Shown here: positions 11,266 through 18,079 of the stretch, piece by piece
How the letters are laid out: the number at the start of each line of letters is the position of its first letter
Numbering within the stretch: position 1 is the stretch's first letter
Virus record (IMG/VR): IMGVR_UViG_3300006923_000013
Location: 1-64,000 of that record
From: a virus
DNA length: 64,000 nucleotides
Reading direction: 5' to 3' (one strand)
Position numbers and translations under genes: made by a program
The notes under the pieces: generated by a model
The model's input: only the letters and a program-made list of their open reading frames with translations
What the model was told of the DNA's origin: nothing
Database searches by the model: none

Positions 11266-11842
11266 TAATAAAATATGGAAATTAACTATTCCTAATTATG
11301 AAGATAAAGTACCAATAAGCCAAAAACGAAGAGCGAAGTACTTTAAACAGAATGAATCAAAGCCTAGATTACCTAAAAAACATCTATCAAAAATACAATC
11401 TGGACATTTTAAATATGATAAACTAGGTTATTTGGTAGATGAGAATAAAAATAGAGTATTAGCTAATCCTATTGTAGCAGGAACACCTCGATATTGGACT
11501 ATAAATGGTCAAAGAATCTATGATGGATCTCTACACTATACCGCACGCTCTAAAGTAGCGCGATGGATGCATGGATATCTTGGAGCATACATAAGTAAAT
11601 TACCAGCATTACACATTCCAGAAGGATGTTATTTGAGGGTATGGATAGATATGTATAAACCTGCAGATAATCAGAATTGGGACTGTGATAATCAGTGGCC
11701 CTGGACCAAGTGGTTCTTAGATACTCTAGTTGAACATAAAAAAATCCCAGAAGATAATGTACAGTATATACGAAGTTCAGGACAGATAACTTATATACCT
11801 TCAGATGAACGTAAACTTGTCTTTAATATTCAAATAATATGA
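11246..11842 (+). CDS. RusA-like Holliday junction resolvase
   Basis: A 198-residue protein. The N-terminal 60 residues are basic and may bind DNA. The C-terminal part matches the RusA pattern: D146-x-D148-N, then an aromatic helix ending LDTLVEHK (D159), then PEDNVQYI (D170) and a final beta strand. RusA enzymes are dimeric endonucleases that cut four-way junctions using such Asp residues. In a phage with annealing-type recombination it would resolve branched replication intermediates before packaging. It is flanked by the primase and the RecE-like nuclease, with short overlaps on both sides. Confidence 0.6.
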   Translation: MKQKPPDNKIWKLTIPNYEDKVPISQKRRAKYFKQNESKPRLPKKHLSKIQSGHFKYDKLGYLVDENKNRVLANPIVAGTPRYWTINGQRIYDGSLHYTARSKVARWMHGYLGAYISKLPALHIPEGCYLRVWIDMYKPADNQNWDCDNQWPWTKWFLDTLVEHKKIPEDNVQYIRSSGQITYIPSDERKLVFNIQII

Positions 11843-12891
11843 TAACAACAGAAACAATAAATAACCAAGTAACAGATGTGAATGATCATGTAATGAGTGT
11901 GTCTTCATTGAATCTTTTTAATGCATCACCACGAGATTACAAAAATCATGTACTACATCCTGTAAGTAGAAATACTACATATTTCACTAAAGGAAGTGCT
12001 GTAGATTGCCTTATAACTGAGCCTAAAAAGTTTTATGATCAGTTTGCAGTAATGAGCATCAATCGTCCATCAGGAATGTTGGGAGATATGTGTGTAGCAT
12101 TAGCAGAATTTAAAGCGTTAGATCCAGAAAATAAAGTGACTTTCGATGAAATGTTCAATCTTGCATATAAGACTGTTAATTATAAACTAACAGAAGCTTC
12201 AGTACGTAAGAAATTTGAGGATCCTAAGAACAACTTCAAAAAATATTACCAAGAACTTATAGCTGCTGGAGATAAAAAAACTATAAGTACTGTCGAGTAT
12301 GACCAGGCTGTAGAGGTAGTTCGTATGTTGCAAACTGATCCTTACACTAAAAAATACATAACCGATGCTCCTGCACACTTTATGATGGATGTCCATGATC
12401 AAATGGAGATATTCTTCTCTTATAGAGATGTAGAGTGTAAAGCATATCTTGATAGGCTCATAATAGATCATAGTACTAAAACTTTAATACCTATTGATCT
12501 TAAAACTACAGGAAAATCTGTTTTTGATTTTCCAAAAAGTTATATCAATTTTGAGTATTTCCGACAAGGTGCCTTTTATACAAAGGCTGTACATGAATAT
12601 AGAGCGGCCCATCCAGAGTTAAAAGGGTATAATATAGAACCTTTCCTATTCATAGTAGCAGAAATGGCATGCAGTAATTCGCCTATGATATACAAAATGA
12701 GTACAGAAGATCTTGCAGTTGCACTTTACGCAGGTGGAGAATTGAAATACTCAAGATACCCTGTACGATCTATTGCAGATCTTTTAGATGATGTAAAATG
12801 GCATCGTGATGCGGGTTCATGGGATATGTCCAAAGCACATTATACACGTTATGCCAATGACCATGCAATTACACTCGATAGTTTCGCTTAA
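11839..12891 (+). CDS. RecE-like PD-(D/E)XK exonuclease (DUF3799 type)
   Basis: A 350-residue nuclease of the PD-(D/E)XK superfamily, resembling the phage exodeoxyribonuclease VIII/RecE group. The N-terminal S-x-L-N-x-F-x-x-S and KGSAVDCL pattern is typical of this group. The core is VECKAYLDRLIID (D205) followed by IPIDLKTTGKS (D220-x-K222), and then the YFRQGAFYTKAV helix that carries the conserved Q-x-x-x-Y. It should resect DNA ends to give single strands for the annealing ATPase. It starts in an ATGA overlap with the RusA-like gene. Confidence 0.7.
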   Translation: MITTETINNQVTDVNDHVMSVSSLNLFNASPRDYKNHVLHPVSRNTTYFTKGSAVDCLITEPKKFYDQFAVMSINRPSGMLGDMCVALAEFKALDPENKVTFDEMFNLAYKTVNYKLTEASVRKKFEDPKNNFKKYYQELIAAGDKKTISTVEYDQAVEVVRMLQTDPYTKKYITDAPAHFMMDVHDQMEIFFSYRDVECKAYLDRLIIDHSTKTLIPIDLKTTGKSVFDFPKSYINFEYFRQGAFYTKAVHEYRAAHPELKGYNIEPFLFIVAEMACSNSPMIYKMSTEDLAVALYAGGELKYSRYPVRSIADLLDDVKWHRDAGSWDMSKAHYTRYANDHAITLDSFA

Positions 12892-13381
12892 AAAATATGT
12901 AAGAACCTTTTCTACAACATTTCTACTGCCTATGGTGGTAGAAATGCTGGGAAAAGATTATAAACGTTTAGGGTTTTATAACATATACTTAGGAGACGCT
13001 AAACAATACCAATATCCAGAAGCAGTATACATTCTATTCAAACCACGATTCACTAAAGAATACACCGACTATGAAAAAGAATTAGCTACTCATCCTGAAT
13101 ATATAAAAAGGTATGATATTGCCTCTAAGTTTACAATGCATGTATTTCATATACCAAAAGAGTATATAGCAGACTATCATGTATTTATTAACGGAGAGTA
13201 TACAAAGTTTACACCCGAATACAAATCTAAATTCAAACAAGGCTCTAGAGTCTACGATGTTGTTCAAGGACATCTTAATTATCCTAAATGGAAAGAAAAC
13301 CTTGAAATTTTTAACTTAAAACTAATTACAAATAATACAAAAAATGGAAAAAAGAACAATAAAAACACAATTGAAAGGTAA
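12863..13381 (+). CDS. Hypothetical protein (172 aa)
   Basis: A Tyr/Lys-rich soluble protein with the layout LGKDYKRLGFYNIYLGD, then YPEAVYILFKP, then FHIPKEYIADYHVFINGEY. It suggests a compact alpha/beta domain of a kind seen in uncharacterised phage proteins. The longest frame begins at 12806, but the ATG at 12863 gives a shorter overlap (29 bases) with the nuclease gene and is preferred; the ATG at 12932 is also possible. The C terminus is basic and Asn-rich and overlaps the MoxR gene by 38 bases. Function unknown. Confidence 0.5.
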   Translation: MQLHSIVSLKKYVRTFSTTFLLPMVVEMLGKDYKRLGFYNIYLGDAKQYQYPEAVYILFKPRFTKEYTDYEKELATHPEYIKRYDIASKFTMHVFHIPKEYIADYHVFINGEYTKFTPEYKSKFKQGSRVYDVVQGHLNYPKWKENLEIFNLKLITNNTKNGKKNNKNTIER

Positions 13382-14420
13382 AGATGAAGTTTTCAATCTT
13401 CTTGCTCTTGGAGAGGCTGTACAATTACCAGTTTTACTACTTGGAGAACCAGGTGTAGGTAAAACTCAGGCTCTTCTCGATTATGCTGCTTCTAAATATA
13501 ACTATAGAAGAGATCTGGTACGTTCAAAAACATTCATGATAGAATTGGATGAAGGAACTAAGACCTCAGAAATTAAAGGAAGAGTAGATATGAAAGCATT
13601 GCTTGAAGAGAAAAAGTATGAAACTAAAGCACCTATTGCAGATGCAGAGTTTATTATGATAAACGAAGTTGATAAAGGTACTTCTGGAGTACGTAATACT
13701 TTACTTTCAGTAATGAGAGAAAAAGCACTGTTCTATGGAGATACTGTTAAAAAGTGTAACTGGCAAGTATTTGCTGGTTCTTGTAATATTATTCCACAAG
13801 AAGAAATAGAGAATCCTTTTTGGGATAGATTTATACTTACATTAACTGTAGAAAGAGTAGGAAGTGATGTTATGAAAGGTATATGTAACGAAGAAGCATT
13901 AAAAGTACATACTCTTGATATTAATATTCCTTCTACTGCAGATATAGAAAAAGAAAACGTAAACACTGCATTATTTAACAAATTTGTAGATACGATATAT
14001 TCAACTGCTTCAGATAGAACTATTTATGCACTTAAGGATATAATTAAAGCTGTAAAGCTTATTTATACTTATGATGATAAACAGGCAATTATCTATGTAT
14101 GTAGCCTGGTCGCACCTGCAGCACTTGCAGATATTTCATCTAAGCTTGAGACTAAGAGAGAAAATAATGTAGCTACATTACTATCTCAGTTACCTGGTAT
14201 TTTAGAAGCACATAATGATAGCTATGCTCAAATATTTCTACACTCAGTTTTAACTGAAATTACTGCATTAGCAGAAGTTAATAGTTATAAAACCAGAGCA
14301 GAACAATTTACAAAAGATGTAATTACTTGTATTGAAACTGCTGCTATTTCTACGGAGCAACAAATGCTATTTAAAGGAATAGTAGCTGAACAAAGTTTAA
14401 AAACAACATTAACAGTTTAA
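13344..14420 (+). CDS. MoxR-family AAA+ ATPase
   Basis: A 358-residue AAA+ ATPase of the MoxR/RavA type. Walker A is GEPGVGKT (34-41). Walker B is FIMINEVDK, where the usual Asp is Asn (N107-E108). Sensor 1 is near AGSCN (144-148), and WDRFI (160-164) matches the MoxR arginine-finger region. The C-terminal half is all-helical. MoxR proteins act as chaperone-like remodelers with VWA partners that bind metal-dependent targets, and a VWA gene follows two bases downstream. The pair is probably a functional complex; its phage role is not known. Confidence 0.85.
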   Translation: MEKRTIKTQLKGKDEVFNLLALGEAVQLPVLLLGEPGVGKTQALLDYAASKYNYRRDLVRSKTFMIELDEGTKTSEIKGRVDMKALLEEKKYETKAPIADAEFIMINEVDKGTSGVRNTLLSVMREKALFYGDTVKKCNWQVFAGSCNIIPQEEIENPFWDRFILTLTVERVGSDVMKGICNEEALKVHTLDINIPSTADIEKENVNTALFNKFVDTIYSTASDRTIYALKDIIKAVKLIYTYDDKQAIIYVCSLVAPAALADISSKLETKRENNVATLLSQLPGILEAHNDSYAQIFLHSVLTEITALAEVNSYKTRAEQFTKDVITCIETAAISTEQQMLFKGIVAEQSLKTTLTV

Positions 14421-14422
14421 TC

Positions 14423-15814
14423 ATGAACTATAGAGGAAATTACGGAGATAGGTACTCAGTTGGTACCAAAGGCTACTACGATAAAGCATATGAACAGAAA
14501 AAGAAAAGAGCTGAAATTCTTAAAAACCTTCGACCTGAAATCGAAGCTTCTAAACCTGCACGTATAATTCAAAATCCTCTTCCTCCAGATTTGGAGGGAG
14601 AGGTAGTACGTAGTTTAAAGACATCTATGTCGAATAACTTTTTAGCTTCTTCCTTTATGCAAAAGCAAGGAGTTGAAAATCTAACTATAGATGGATTTAA
14701 CCACTGGTACTCAGAAAAAAAACAGTATAATATCAATTCTGATAAATACTGGTGGCATCATATATTAACAAAAGTTGATAATCATCTATTACAGTATGCT
14801 ACTAATCATAAAGCTGCATATAGCTACATTGCAAGTAAACATATTATTACTATGCTTGAAAAACTTCATAAAGAGTTTGGAAATGATATGGAAAAGCATA
14901 TGGATAAATTCAATGAGCAATGTGGAGACAATGGTAAAAATCCTAGCACCGAAGAAGATTCCGAAGCTTATAAAGAGTTTAAAAATAAGTTAGAAAAAGG
15001 AACAACTCGTGCTAATAATAAAATAAAGAAGGATATCAAAGAAACTGCAGCTAAAGGAAGTGATAGTTTAAATGGTGCAGGTAAAGGAGCTATAGAGCAA
15101 ATAAAACTTTTTGATTCTCCTATTATAAAAAAGTTAGATAACATTAATAAGGGATCTTTAAAGGCATTTTTCAAAACTACTATTGATAAAGCTACGCAAA
15201 ATGCAATAGGACAACAATCTTTAATAGAAGAAAGCTTTTTTGATAGTGAAGAGATAGAAGAGTTATCCAATATAGAGAATTTCGCACATATTGCATTATT
15301 TGAAGATCTTGTTACTCGTTGTATACAATATCATGTTAGTTTTGATATCTATATAGATGATTCAGGTTCTATGAGCGGCAAGAATTTTATTGATAATGTA
15401 TTGGTTTCATACAGAGATCTTGCGCATCTTGTTGCATTTAGATTAAATCAACTTAAATTATTACGAGATTGTTACCTTTTTGCAAGCCATCACCAACTTG
15501 CAAAAATTCCAATAGAAGAATTATTTAAGACTGTATATGGAGGAGGTACTAATATTGATCAATGTTTTATTAATGCAAAAAAAGTAAATCGTCCTTGTAT
15601 TATAATTACAGATGGGTCAGATACATTGAATCCGAAAAACTACTTTAGAGATGCTTTTATTCTTACATTGGAAGTTTCTTCTCTTAATAAGTCGTTTGTA
15701 CCATATGCTGAAAACGGACAACTTTTAGGATATAGACAAGGAAAGATGGAAAAATATATCGTAAACGGCGTAGATGAATATGGTAGAAAAGGTTACTTAA
15801 CCCTACCAAAATAA
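14423..15814 (+). CDS. VWA-domain protein, partner of MoxR ATPase
   Basis: A 463-residue protein. The N-terminal 280 residues are charged and helical, with no known domain. The C-terminal part is a von Willebrand factor A fold: YIDDSGSMSG supplies the MIDAS D-x-S-x-S (D312, S314, S316), GGGTNID near residue 373 supplies the second Thr ligand, and a final IIITDGSD strand supplies the last Asp. This resembles CoxE/YehP-type VWA proteins that pair with MoxR ATPases. It follows the MoxR gene with a two-base gap and ends just before a strong terminator, so the pair probably forms the end of the replication operon. Confidence 0.85.
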   Translation: MNYRGNYGDRYSVGTKGYYDKAYEQKKKRAEILKNLRPEIEASKPARIIQNPLPPDLEGEVVRSLKTSMSNNFLASSFMQKQGVENLTIDGFNHWYSEKKQYNINSDKYWWHHILTKVDNHLLQYATNHKAAYSYIASKHIITMLEKLHKEFGNDMEKHMDKFNEQCGDNGKNPSTEEDSEAYKEFKNKLEKGTTRANNKIKKDIKETAAKGSDSLNGAGKGAIEQIKLFDSPIIKKLDNINKGSLKAFFKTTIDKATQNAIGQQSLIEESFFDSEEIEELSNIENFAHIALFEDLVTRCIQYHVSFDIYIDDSGSMSGKNFIDNVLVSYRDLAHLVAFRLNQLKLLRDCYLFASHHQLAKIPIEELFKTVYGGGTNIDQCFINAKKVNRPCIIITDGSDTLNPKNYFRDAFILTLEVSSLNKSFVPYAENGQLLGYRQGKMEKYIVNGVDEYGRKGYLTLPK

Positions 15815-15828
15815 TTATTATAATTTTT

Positions 15829-15860
15829 AGCCCCAGGAGTAATATACTCTTGGGGCTTTT
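15829..15860 (+). terminator. Strong intrinsic terminator after MoxR-VWA pair
   Basis: AGCCCCA-GGAGTA (15829-15841) pairs with TACTCT-TGGGGCT (15845-15857), a 13-bp stem with one G-T wobble and a 3-base ATA loop, followed by a T tract. It is the most GC-rich hairpin in an otherwise AT-rich gap and should end the replication operon. Confidence 0.85.
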
Positions 15861-15878
15861 AACTAAATCTTAACACAA

Positions 15879-16175
15879 ATGACTAAAACTATTTATGACC
15901 AAGTAAAAAAATTATTAGAAGAAGATCCTAAACTACAATCTTCAGACAAAAAATTAATCTCAAAAATCTGGAAAGATGAAATGAAAGCTATAAGGTGTCC
16001 TATGGACTTATTTTTCACTATGTTCGAGACAAATCACCTCTCATCTTATGAAAGTGTTACAAGGGCAAGACGAAAGGTACAAGAGAAGAATCCCAATCTA
16101 AGAGGAACTACTCACACACAAAGGCACAAAAAAGCTAAAAAAATATCAAAATCAGTGCACACTATGCATCTGTAA
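15879..16175 (+). CDS. Small putative DNA-binding protein (98 aa)
   Basis: A 98-residue very basic protein. Residues of about 50-75 (LSSYESVTRARRKVQEKNPNLRG) match a pattern I have seen in small phage proteins: a helix-turn-helix-like stretch with S-x-x-x-x-R-x-R-R-x-x-Q followed by N-P-x-L-R-G. The C-terminal tail is Lys/His-rich. It probably binds nucleic acid, but no specific function can be given. It lies between the terminator at 15.85 kb and the ribonucleotide reductase gene, so it could regulate that unit. Confidence 0.5.
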   Translation: MTKTIYDQVKKLLEEDPKLQSSDKKLISKIWKDEMKAIRCPMDLFFTMFETNHLSSYESVTRARRKVQEKNPNLRGTTHTQRHKKAKKISKSVHTMHL

Positions 16176-16219: not shown

Positions 16220-18079
16220 ATGGATAAGAGTAATCAAATACTTAGTGACATTGTTGTCTTTAATAAATACGCAAAATATAAGCCCAAAGAAAAAAGAAGA
16301 GAAACATGGGATGAGATCGTAACACGGTATCTAACTATGATGAAGAAAAAATATCCAGAATTAAAAAATGAAATTGAAACAAAAGGACAATATATAAGAG
16401 ATAAAAAAGTATTAATGTCAATGAGAGCTGCACAATTTTCAGGTGCAGCAATTGAAAAATCAGAGTCTCGTGTGTACAATTGTGCATACTTGCCAATAGA
16501 TGACTATAGAGCATTCAGTGAAACAATGTTTCTTCTTTTAGGAGGAACAGGTGTAGGATTTTCGGTACAAAGAGATCATGTGAATGCTTTACCAGAGATA
16601 CAAAAACCAAGAAAACAACAAAAATATTTAATAGGAGATTCTATAGAAGGCTGGGCAGATAGTATCAGGCATTTAATGGCAAGTTTCTTTGGATTAAGAA
16701 AAACTAAACCTGTTTTTGATTTTAGTGATATTAGAGAAAAAGGAGCACAGCTTGCAACTGCAGGCGGTAAAGCTCCTGGGCCCGATCCTCTTAAAAAATG
16801 CTTATTCAACTTAGAGCTCATGCTTGCCACAAAAGCTAACGGAAGTAAACTTACTCCTATAGAAGTGCACGACATGATCTGTCATATAGCAGATGCTGTA
16901 CTTGCTGGAGGAATTAGAAGAGCAGCTTTAATATCACTCTTTTCGGCAAATGATGAAGAAATGCTTTCAGCTAAGTCTGGAACATGGTATGAAGCTAATC
17001 CTCAACGAGGAAGAGCTAATAACTCTGCAGTACTACTAAGACATAAAGTAACAGAGAAGTTCTTTAAGGATATATGGAAGAAGATTGAACTAAGTGGAAG
17101 TGGAGAACCTGGAGTGTATTTCACAAACGACAAGGACTGGGGAACTAATCCCTGTTGTGAAATTGCATTAAGACCTTTTCAATTCTGTAATCTAACAGAG
17201 ATCAATGCTGGAGATATAGAAGATCAAGCTGATTTTATTAGACGAGCAATAGTTGCTTCATTTTTTGGAACTCTTCAGGCAGGATATAGTAATTTTCATT
17301 ATTTACGTCCTATTTGGCAAGAGACAACAGAGAAGGAGGCCCTTATAGGTGTCGGCATTACAGGTATATGTAATGGAAAGCTCTCTAGAATAGATTTAAA
17401 AAGAGGGGCTAGGGCAGTTATTCAAACAAATAAAAGAGTAGCAGAGACCATTGGAATAAACCCTGCAGCGAGAACTACAACTGTAAAACCTTCGGGAACA
17501 ACAAGTTGTGTAGTAGGAACAAGTTCAGGTATTCATGCCTGGCATTCTAAATATTATATACGTAGAATGCAATGCTCTAAAAATGAGCCTCTATATAAAT
17601 ATCTATCTGTTATGCATCCCGAACTCGTAGAAGACATGGTATTGTTACCTGGTTCTGCTGTTATAGAAATCCCTCAACGTGCTCCTAAAGGAGGAACTAC
17701 ACGAGAAGAAGAAAACATAAGTTTTATGTTAGGAAGAATAAGTCTTTATAACAATGATTGGGTAAAAACAGGACATATTACAGGTTCTAATACTCATAAT
17801 GTTTCAGCTACAGTTTCTGTAGAAGAAGATCAATGGGAATACGTAGGAGATTGGATGTGGCATAATAGAAATAACTTCAATGGTCTTTCAGTACTTCCAT
17901 ATGATGGAGGAACTTATCAGCAGGCGCCGTTTGAAGAGATCACAAAAGAAGAATTTGAAAAAAGATACGATAAATTACTAGCAATAGATTTAACTAAGGT
18001 AGTAGAAGACGAAGATAATACAGATTTAAAAGGAGAATTGGCATGTGCAGGCGGTGCGTGCGAAGTAGTGATAGCCTAA
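16220..18079 (+). CDS. nrdJ: Ribonucleoside-triphosphate reductase, B12-dependent (class II)
   Basis: A 619-residue monomeric class II reductase that makes deoxynucleotides from ribonucleotides with adenosylcobalamin. Key residues are C88 (NCAY), the radical site N-P-C312-C-E314, and C323 (FCN), spaced 11 residues after C312 as in Lactobacillus RTPR. The PSGTTSCVVG and GIHAWHS segments are typical of the family, and the C-terminal redox pair is C609 and C614 with a gap of five. It is shorter than Lactobacillus RTPR (739 residues). No small subunit or activase gene is visible in the window, which fits class II. It lets the phage make dNTPs independently of host class I enzyme, provided the host supplies B12. 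Confidence 0.9.
   Translation: MDKSNQILSDIVVFNKYAKYKPKEKRRETWDEIVTRYLTMMKKKYPELKNEIETKGQYIRDKKVLMSMRAAQFSGAAIEKSESRVYNCAYLPIDDYRAFSETMFLLLGGTGVGFSVQRDHVNALPEIQKPRKQQKYLIGDSIEGWADSIRHLMASFFGLRKTKPVFDFSDIREKGAQLATAGGKAPGPDPLKKCLFNLELMLATKANGSKLTPIEVHDMICHIADAVLAGGIRRAALISLFSANDEEMLSAKSGTWYEANPQRGRANNSAVLLRHKVTEKFFKDIWKKIELSGSGEPGVYFTNDKDWGTNPCCEIALRPFQFCNLTEINAGDIEDQADFIRRAIVASFFGTLQAGYSNFHYLRPIWQETTEKEALIGVGITGICNGKLSRIDLKRGARAVIQTNKRVAETIGINPAARTTTVKPSGTTSCVVGTSSGIHAWHSKYYIRRMQCSKNEPLYKYLSVMHPELVEDMVLLPGSAVIEIPQRAPKGGTTREEENISFMLGRISLYNNDWVKTGHITGSNTHNVSATVSVEEDQWEYVGDWMWHNRNNFNGLSVLPYDGGTYQQAPFEEITKEEFEKRYDKLLAIDLTKVVEDEDNTDLKGELACAGGACEVVIA

Follow-up and report, generated by a model that had tools for sequence, protein, structure and literature searches.

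What does a MoxR-type ATPase paired with a VWA-domain protein do inside the replication operon of a crAss-like phage? This question is raised by positions 13,344 to 15,814 of the window, a DNA stretch of 64,000 nucleotides from IMG/VR virus record IMGVR_UViG_3300006923_000013 (64 kb out of a virus record of 85.8 kb), where two adjacent genes encode these proteins. The initial annotation had described a MoxR-VWA pair in a replication operon, with an unusual Asn in the Walker B motif of the ATPase, and this part of the description stands; its link to the nearby B12-dependent reductase does not. The explanation favored here, with a probability of about one half, is that the pair is a two-component AAA+ remodeler of the MoxR-VWA kind that serves crAss-like phage replication or recombination through a putative substrate in that apparatus. 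A narrower version is tentative: a dedicated phage MoxR-VWA family would remodel a crAss-like replication or recombination complex, with the Asn making ATP turnover dependent on the partner or client. The target is more likely to be the replication apparatus than the neighboring vitamin-B12 enzyme. To our knowledge, no MoxR-VWA machine has been assigned to DNA replication. The features of the pair are as follows.

13344–14420, plus strand: MoxR-type AAA+ ATPase, 358 aa (open reading frame; Pfam bpMoxR PF20030, 1.8e-21; AAA_5, 2.4e-11; closest PDB sequence RavA, 6e-7)
13443–13466, plus strand: Walker A motif GEPGVGKT, residues 34–41 (G34, K40 and T41 each in 58/58 sequences of the family alignment)
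13662–13667, plus strand: Walker B N107-E108, codons aac gaa, with Asp replaced by Asn (sequence and family alignment)
14423–15814, plus strand: VWA-domain partner, 463 aa, with a helical N-terminal part and a predicted VWA domain at about residues 303–443 (open reading frame, AlphaFold2 fold, structural matches)
15356–15370, plus strand: first motif of the metal ion-dependent adhesion site (MIDAS), DxSxS (D312, S314 and S316, each 49/49)
15548–15550, plus strand: MIDAS T376 (49/49)
15611–15613, plus strand: MIDAS D397 (49/49)

The MoxR stop codon TAA (14418–14420) is followed by two bases and then by the VWA start codon ATG at 14423, and the open reading frames bear out the earlier call of a pair spaced by two bases at 13344–15814. 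Relatives were collected from IMG/VR and GTDB by alignment-guided scans. They are 34–100% identical, and all counts are among the matches listed, the family being at least that large. The first survey comprised 72 loci, with near-duplicate contigs included and the window's own phage left out. A VWA gene lies next to MoxR on the same strand, at a spacing of −55 to +108 nt, in 62/62 loci that have at least 75 nt downstream. Three of these (L118, L192 and L194) were retrieved via VWA, and the fair count is therefore 59/59 loci retrieved via MoxR. The remaining loci comprise nine that end within 74 nt of MoxR and one (L196) that holds the VWA gene only. Among the 59 distinct MoxR sequences (L118, L192 and L194 included; L116 and L117, which end at the MoxR gene, left out), 52 are paired, none is unpaired with room for a partner, and seven have no room. 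A second scan used patterns outside Walker B and yielded 15 loci among the matches listed, 10 of them new contigs; 14 are paired and one is cut off inside MoxR. The called gap between the two genes is 304 nt at one of its loci (L209). Two-gene pairing is strict in the surveyed loci.

The ATPase scores 76.6 bits against bpMoxR PF20030 (cut-off 27) and is likewise above the cut-off for AAA_5, and family members L110 and L172 reach 84.1 and 85.5 bits against PF20030. Its Walker B stretch reads F-I-M-I-N107-E108-V-D-K. In the 72 aligned family sequences, 67 carry NE and one carries NX, while four fragments lack the column, which gives Asn in 68/68. One of the two retrieval patterns in a family scan contained the Walker B motif itself, a possible bias, and the residue was therefore re-examined in sets that are independent of that pattern. 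Asn is present in 23/23 sequences matching the other retrieval pattern, which lacks the motif, and in 15/15 loci retrieved by patterns in the N-terminal half, outside Walker B (again among the matches listed). As a control, DE was found in 11/11 other MoxRs from records filed as viral, some of which are probably bacterial. A further control used the phylum of G001, a genome titled Nanoarchaeota: 30 loci were taken, six were dropped for want of a match, and DE was found in 23 of the 24 with a MoxR open reading frame match, the remaining NE being the phage contig itself. Asn in 68/68 family members against Asp in 11/11 and 23/23 controls agrees with the earlier remark that this Walker B is unusual.

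The residues conserved across the MoxR family are Walker A K40 and T41, E108 (one X), sensor-1 N148, R162, R171 and R225. Ratios of nonsynonymous to synonymous substitution (dN/dS) from five hand-picked comparisons are 0.31 and 0.14 for MoxR, 0.19 and 0.23 for VWA, and 0.007 for the MoxR core; dN is lower than dS in all of them. Because the Asn is fixed, Walker A, the catalytic Glu, the sensor-1 Asn and the Arg residues are kept, and dN is below dS, the Asn is, judging from the alignments, a fixed family trait and not decay. The idea of an ATPase dead by decay was rejected on the same fixation throughout the family and the low dN.

Two peculiarities of individual MoxR genes were observed. At L186 (5768–8867), the gene is split in two pieces by an insert of two open reading frames (272 and 166 aa) that by eye resemble GIY-YIG and HNH homing endonucleases; the related L181 gene is intact. 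Homing endonuclease elements favor conserved, important genes. An N-terminal extension of 125–269 aa is found on fifteen MoxR rows (L152–L154, L156, L157, L167–L169, L173, L175, L176, L178, L180, L186 and L187), most of them with an RPSP-x-x-SAT motif seen by eye. A fusion with c27, the small protein encoded upstream, was rejected as the origin of the extension, as the two are not homologous.

The partner protein has no Pfam VWA match, and the domain call is based on the MIDAS and the fold. AlphaFold2 with a 40-row alignment gave a predicted local distance difference test (pLDDT) of 82.5 and a predicted template modeling score (pTM) of 0.73, and only a pLDDT of 35.9 without the alignment. Residues 303–443 of the model match Rpn10 with Z 10.8. 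The match to the NorD VWA domain of the NorQ-NorD complex (9qh8_G) has Z 10.2 and 2.9 Å over 136 residues and is tied with many VWA domains. Foldseek against the PDB alone found nothing at E 0.001, and a comparison with a viral structure library passed 19 viral models, with a phage VWFA protein first. The MIDAS residues were counted in 49 distinct VWA proteins, after fragments shorter than 380 aa had been dropped. They are intact in 49/49, and a loss of metal binding, which the initial annotation had named as evidence that would count against its reading, is not indicated by these sequences. The VWA identity of the 14423–15814 product is confirmed by the complete MIDAS together with the confident predicted fold.

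The client class of the pair is deduced from its genomic residence in a replication block. In the window, PolA, an SNF2/ResIII-like helicase, a DnaB-like helicase, an AAA_24 ATPase, a primase, a RusA-like resolvase and an exonuclease VIII-like nuclease are encoded 5' of the pair in the same operon, and these genes support the replication-operon setting claimed for it before. The primase, DnaB, SNF2 and an AAA+ ATPase are described as highly conserved crAss replication genes by Yutin et al. 2021 (PMC7886860), whose main text does not contain MoxR by term count. Eight replication hallmarks (PolA, DnaB, SNF2, primase, AAA_24, exonuclease, RusA and uracil-DNA glycosylase, UDG) were sought in 56 loci of at least 6 kb among the 61 with distinct MoxR; the UDG hallmark is based on the Pfam match of one cluster member. 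At least one hallmark is present in 54/56 loci and at least three in 39/56. No relative of the window's major capsid protein (MCP), portal or large terminase subunit (TerL) was found in 56/56 loci by blastp at 1e-4, a search that very diverged relatives could escape. The upstream neighbor of MoxR in 58 loci is an exonuclease in 13, c15 in 10, UDG in 10, c30 in four, c27 in four, the primase in three and others in 14. The downstream neighbor of VWA in 45 loci is c19 in six, the primase in four, c42 (a RusA-like PHROG match) in four, and others in the rest. Clades differ in the replication gene that stands beside the pair, which may be the exonuclease, primase, UDG or RusA-like resolvase. The window features next to the pair are given below.

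11839–12891, plus strand: exonuclease (phrog_412, exonuclease VIII-like), one gene further up from MoxR
15829–15857, plus strand: hairpin resembling a terminator, downstream of the VWA gene (13 pairs, −22.3 kcal/mol, z −5.3, 0/200 shuffles as good)
16220–18079, plus strand: adenosylcobalamin-type (class II) ribonucleotide reductase (RNR; phrog_367, 1.6e-128; TIGR02505, 266.5 bits, below the cut-off of 340)

The hairpin was previously called a strong terminator. It is strong as a hairpin; its status as a terminator is likely and unproven, because the U-tract is short (only about 4 U) and the consensus terminator scan did not include it. The small genes that flank the pair (12887–13381 and 15879–16175) belong to families c15 (12 loci) and c19 (10 loci), and their window copies have no Pfam match. 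A spore-photoproduct-lyase-like gene (SPL, 3.2e-25) lies near the pair at L126 (10481–11392) and in 10 other loci, 11 in total.

The TerL, portal and MCP of the phage are all recognized by PHROGs. TerL matches 157 INPHARED records and is 39% identical to that of cr60_1, 31% to that of crAss001 and 29% to that of phi14:2, all three classed as Crassvirales; Fpv20 TerL is also 39% identical, yet Fpv20 is not classed as Crassvirales. This terminase kinship places the window phage among the crAss-like phages (Crassvirales). TerL relatives were found in 17/26 pair-bearing records, and in the TerL tree the pair carriers are interleaved with crAss001, phi14:2, cr60_1 and Fpv20. Patristic distances of MoxR and TerL are correlated (r 0.78, 19 records, 0/2000 permutations as high), with carriers L181 and L184 dropped as their MoxR sequences are stored under other loci. 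The two trees disagree in some deep branches, and several supports are low. Read from these trees, the history fits long residence with losses, and exchange is also possible. As a separate observation, L219, which holds the cr60_1 terminase, has 10 in-frame TAG codons, consistent with TAG recoding in cr60_1.

Several points weigh against a role in replication or recombination. Two of the 56 loci (L127 and L194) have no replication hallmark. No single replication gene is always adjacent to the pair, and no client is pinpointed by the neighbors. Block residence is the sole basis of the client class, and the 54/56 count stands without a random-locus background rate. Middle-block genes can also serve host takeover, anti-defence or early virion assembly. 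The Walker B Asn itself could mean weak or no hydrolysis. No MoxR was found by profile search in crAss001, cr60_1, phi14:2 or Fpv20, and crAss-like replication as a whole therefore does not depend on the pair. Finally, for the two viral MoxR-VWA pairs found in the literature, the assigned role is assembly of the virion or tail (PMC4124505, PMC7824862).

The proposal that the pair is a metal- or cofactor-insertion chaperone for the neighboring B12-dependent RNR, like CobST or NorQD, is very improbable. It draws on the fact that the reductase gene stands downstream of the pair, separated from it by a single small gene, in the window and in L119, L121, L123, L133, L192 and L194, and that metal insertion is a known activity of MoxR-VWA pairs (PMC13036017). 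Against this, an RNR is inside the locus in just 11/61 loci with distinct MoxR, mostly in the window's own clade. The PF02867 profile detects this RNR weakly, and the search was therefore repeated with the window RNR as the query. With both, an RNR was found in 8/26 pair-bearing records and none was matched in 18/26; among records of at least 75 kb, it was found in 1/16 and undetected in 15/16. These counts include near-duplicates and possibly fragmentary records, and they would miss an RNR that is very diverged or of class III. L140 and L141, whose TerL is 78–79% identical and belongs to the window's clade, have no detected RNR in 94–95 kb. In the reverse direction, MoxR was found in 0/20 records chosen from 80 RNR loci (RNR 53–76% identical), a weak search that lacked its own positive control (the profile did detect L202) and covered mostly unrelated phages, 0/12 having a relative of the window TerL. 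In L029 (4485–5934), where the RNR is 76% identical, the place of the pair is taken by a UDG and a MazG/PRA-PH-type gene. A further point against the proposal is that class II RNR takes preformed cobalamin. The partnership with the B12 reductase, the link suggested by the initial annotation, was thus rejected as a general role, since the RNR is mostly undetected and homologous pairs have varying immediate neighbors instead of a fixed one, an outcome that the annotation itself had named as counting against its reading.

Three further explanations were considered. A machine for counter-defence or host takeover, acting by dismantling a host complex, is rather unlikely. The presence of bpMoxR relatives in bacterial conflict systems (PMC7159879) is in its favor, and the patchy occurrence of the pair among crAss-like phages suits an accessory role; the agreement with TerL distances and the residence in the replication block resemble a core module instead, and PADLOC gave one match only, at 14 bits. 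A chaperone for virion or tail assembly, the role proposed for ATV p618/p892 and the group 2.2 jumbo phages, is unlikely. It gains from the published assignments and from SMV1, which has the same adjacent order and a VWA protein scoring 22.3 bits against the profile of the window's VWA family. The position of the pair argues against a virion-assembly role: the genes around it in the 56 loci include no relative of the window's MCP, portal or TerL, and in the window itself these three genes are on the opposite strand. The Walker B of ATV and SMV1 is also DE, as opposed to NE in the window's family. A catalytically weak AAA+ ring, deprived of effective hydrolysis by the Asn and working as a nucleotide-gated scaffold or clamp-like adaptor, is quite doubtful. 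The fixed Asp-to-Asn change at Walker B is in its favor, and in McrB the Walker B Asp coordinates Mg, with Ala at Mg-coordinating positions impairing hydrolysis (PMC7680126). L172 also has a match to a phage clamp-loader family that spans most of the protein (1.1e-8); at 36 bits, this is well under its MoxR-type PHROG score of 68 bits. The retention of the catalytic Glu, sensor-1 Asn and Arg residues argues for retained turnover.

As a remodeler of the replication or recombination apparatus, the pair may work as follows. MoxR subunits are expected to assemble into a hexameric ATPase ring, on which the VWA protein would dock as an adaptor. The MIDAS metal site may hold a client through an acidic residue, and ATP-driven movement of the ring would then twist, open or dissociate the client. 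This mechanism is modeled by analogy on NorQD, with the VWA protein on the ring, the MIDAS gripping the client and ATP steps turning it; in NorQD, a finger of the VWA protein enters the hexamer pore (PMC13036017). Candidate clients are the primase-helicase, single-strand-binding proteins, and exonuclease or resolvase complexes, and the action may be loading, unloading or recycling of a primase-helicase or a nuclease/resolvase complex. The Walker B Asn would tune Mg-ATP handling toward slower or partner-gated turnover without abolishing it.

Several known systems resemble the pair in part. NorQ/NorD also has a MoxR-like ring, a VWA partner and a DxSxS-T-D MIDAS. It differs in that it inserts iron into the membrane enzyme cNOR and in that the finger is shown for NorD (PMC13036017), whereas the window pair is known from genes and a model. 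RavA/ViaA is related through RavA, the closest PDB sequence; the RavA family of NCBIfam scores the window protein at 31.4 against a cut-off of 681, and the RavA Walker B is DE in the alignment. ATV p618/p892 and SMV1 (Bicaudaviridae) are likewise a virus-encoded MoxR and VWA partner, with the SMV1 genes adjacent on one strand. Unlike the window phage, they are archaeal viruses with a proposed virion or tail role (PMC4124505), a Walker B of IDE, a MoxR of 588–618 aa and no replication operon in the stretches examined. The MoxR-vWA pair of group 2.2 jumbo phages (Iyer et al. 2021, PMC7824862) is a chaperone/co-chaperone pair of tailed phages, but its VWA is fused to a metallopeptidase and virion assembly is proposed; crAss-like phages go unmentioned in its account of group 2.2. 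The MoxR-vWA-beta-propeller ternary systems (Kaur et al. 2020, PMC7159879) are close in that the bpMoxR gathering score is exceeded, whereas the window pair is in a phage replication context. No Pfam match to a beta-propeller, VMAP, iSTAND or FtsH-type third component was found in the 12 window proteins scanned, both immediate neighbors included. In a check for a CobS-type protein, the window MoxR had no match to phrog_249 (porphyrin biosynthesis) at E 0.1, and L110 (0.0036) and L172 (0.031) matched weakly.

Two other gene sets were observed. L108 (77–7704, MT836594.1), a human-faecal "phage" scaffold, encodes a helicase, a DNA polymerase III beta-clamp-like protein, a MoxR with DE, a single-strand-binding protein and a VWA protein recognized by Pfam; it is another MoxR-VWA set in a replication neighborhood, outside the window's family. 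L112 (3834–7452), a viral contig, has three genes in succession, for a MoxR with DE, a VWA-like protein (VWA_2 below cut-off) and a reverse transcriptase (RVT_1, 1.4e-27).

The family is reached by some searches and not by others. Direct tblastn of the MoxR and VWA proteins against INPHARED phages gave no match at 1e-5 and only five and four weak records, respectively, at E 10. The distant member L154 gave 19 records, none covering 80% of the query; these were RavA-like, ATV/SMV1 and a few others. A single-protein pattern scan recovered only the same phage again, and scans anchored on the neighbors PolA and RNR failed to reach the wider MoxR family, which the alignment-guided scans did. L117 (NZCU01000020.1) and L118 are filed under a Nanoarchaeota genome bin and carry the same phage operon; they are probably binning errors. 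A literature search found no paper describing a MoxR-VWA pair in crAss-like phages among the matches listed. PMC8195603 was rejected as a paper on a crAss-phage MoxR, as "crass" in it stands for Crassostrea.

MoxR-VWA pairs are already known as a kind, and what appears to be new here is such a pair in crAss-like phages. The exact replication mode of these phages is unknown according to a Crassvirales review (PMC10136315). A strictly paired two-protein ATPase that resides in the replication block and co-diverges with the terminase is a concrete handle on crAss-like replication. In addition, a whole lineage that has a Walker B Asn and retains the other catalytic residues offers a natural experiment on the gating of AAA+ hydrolysis.

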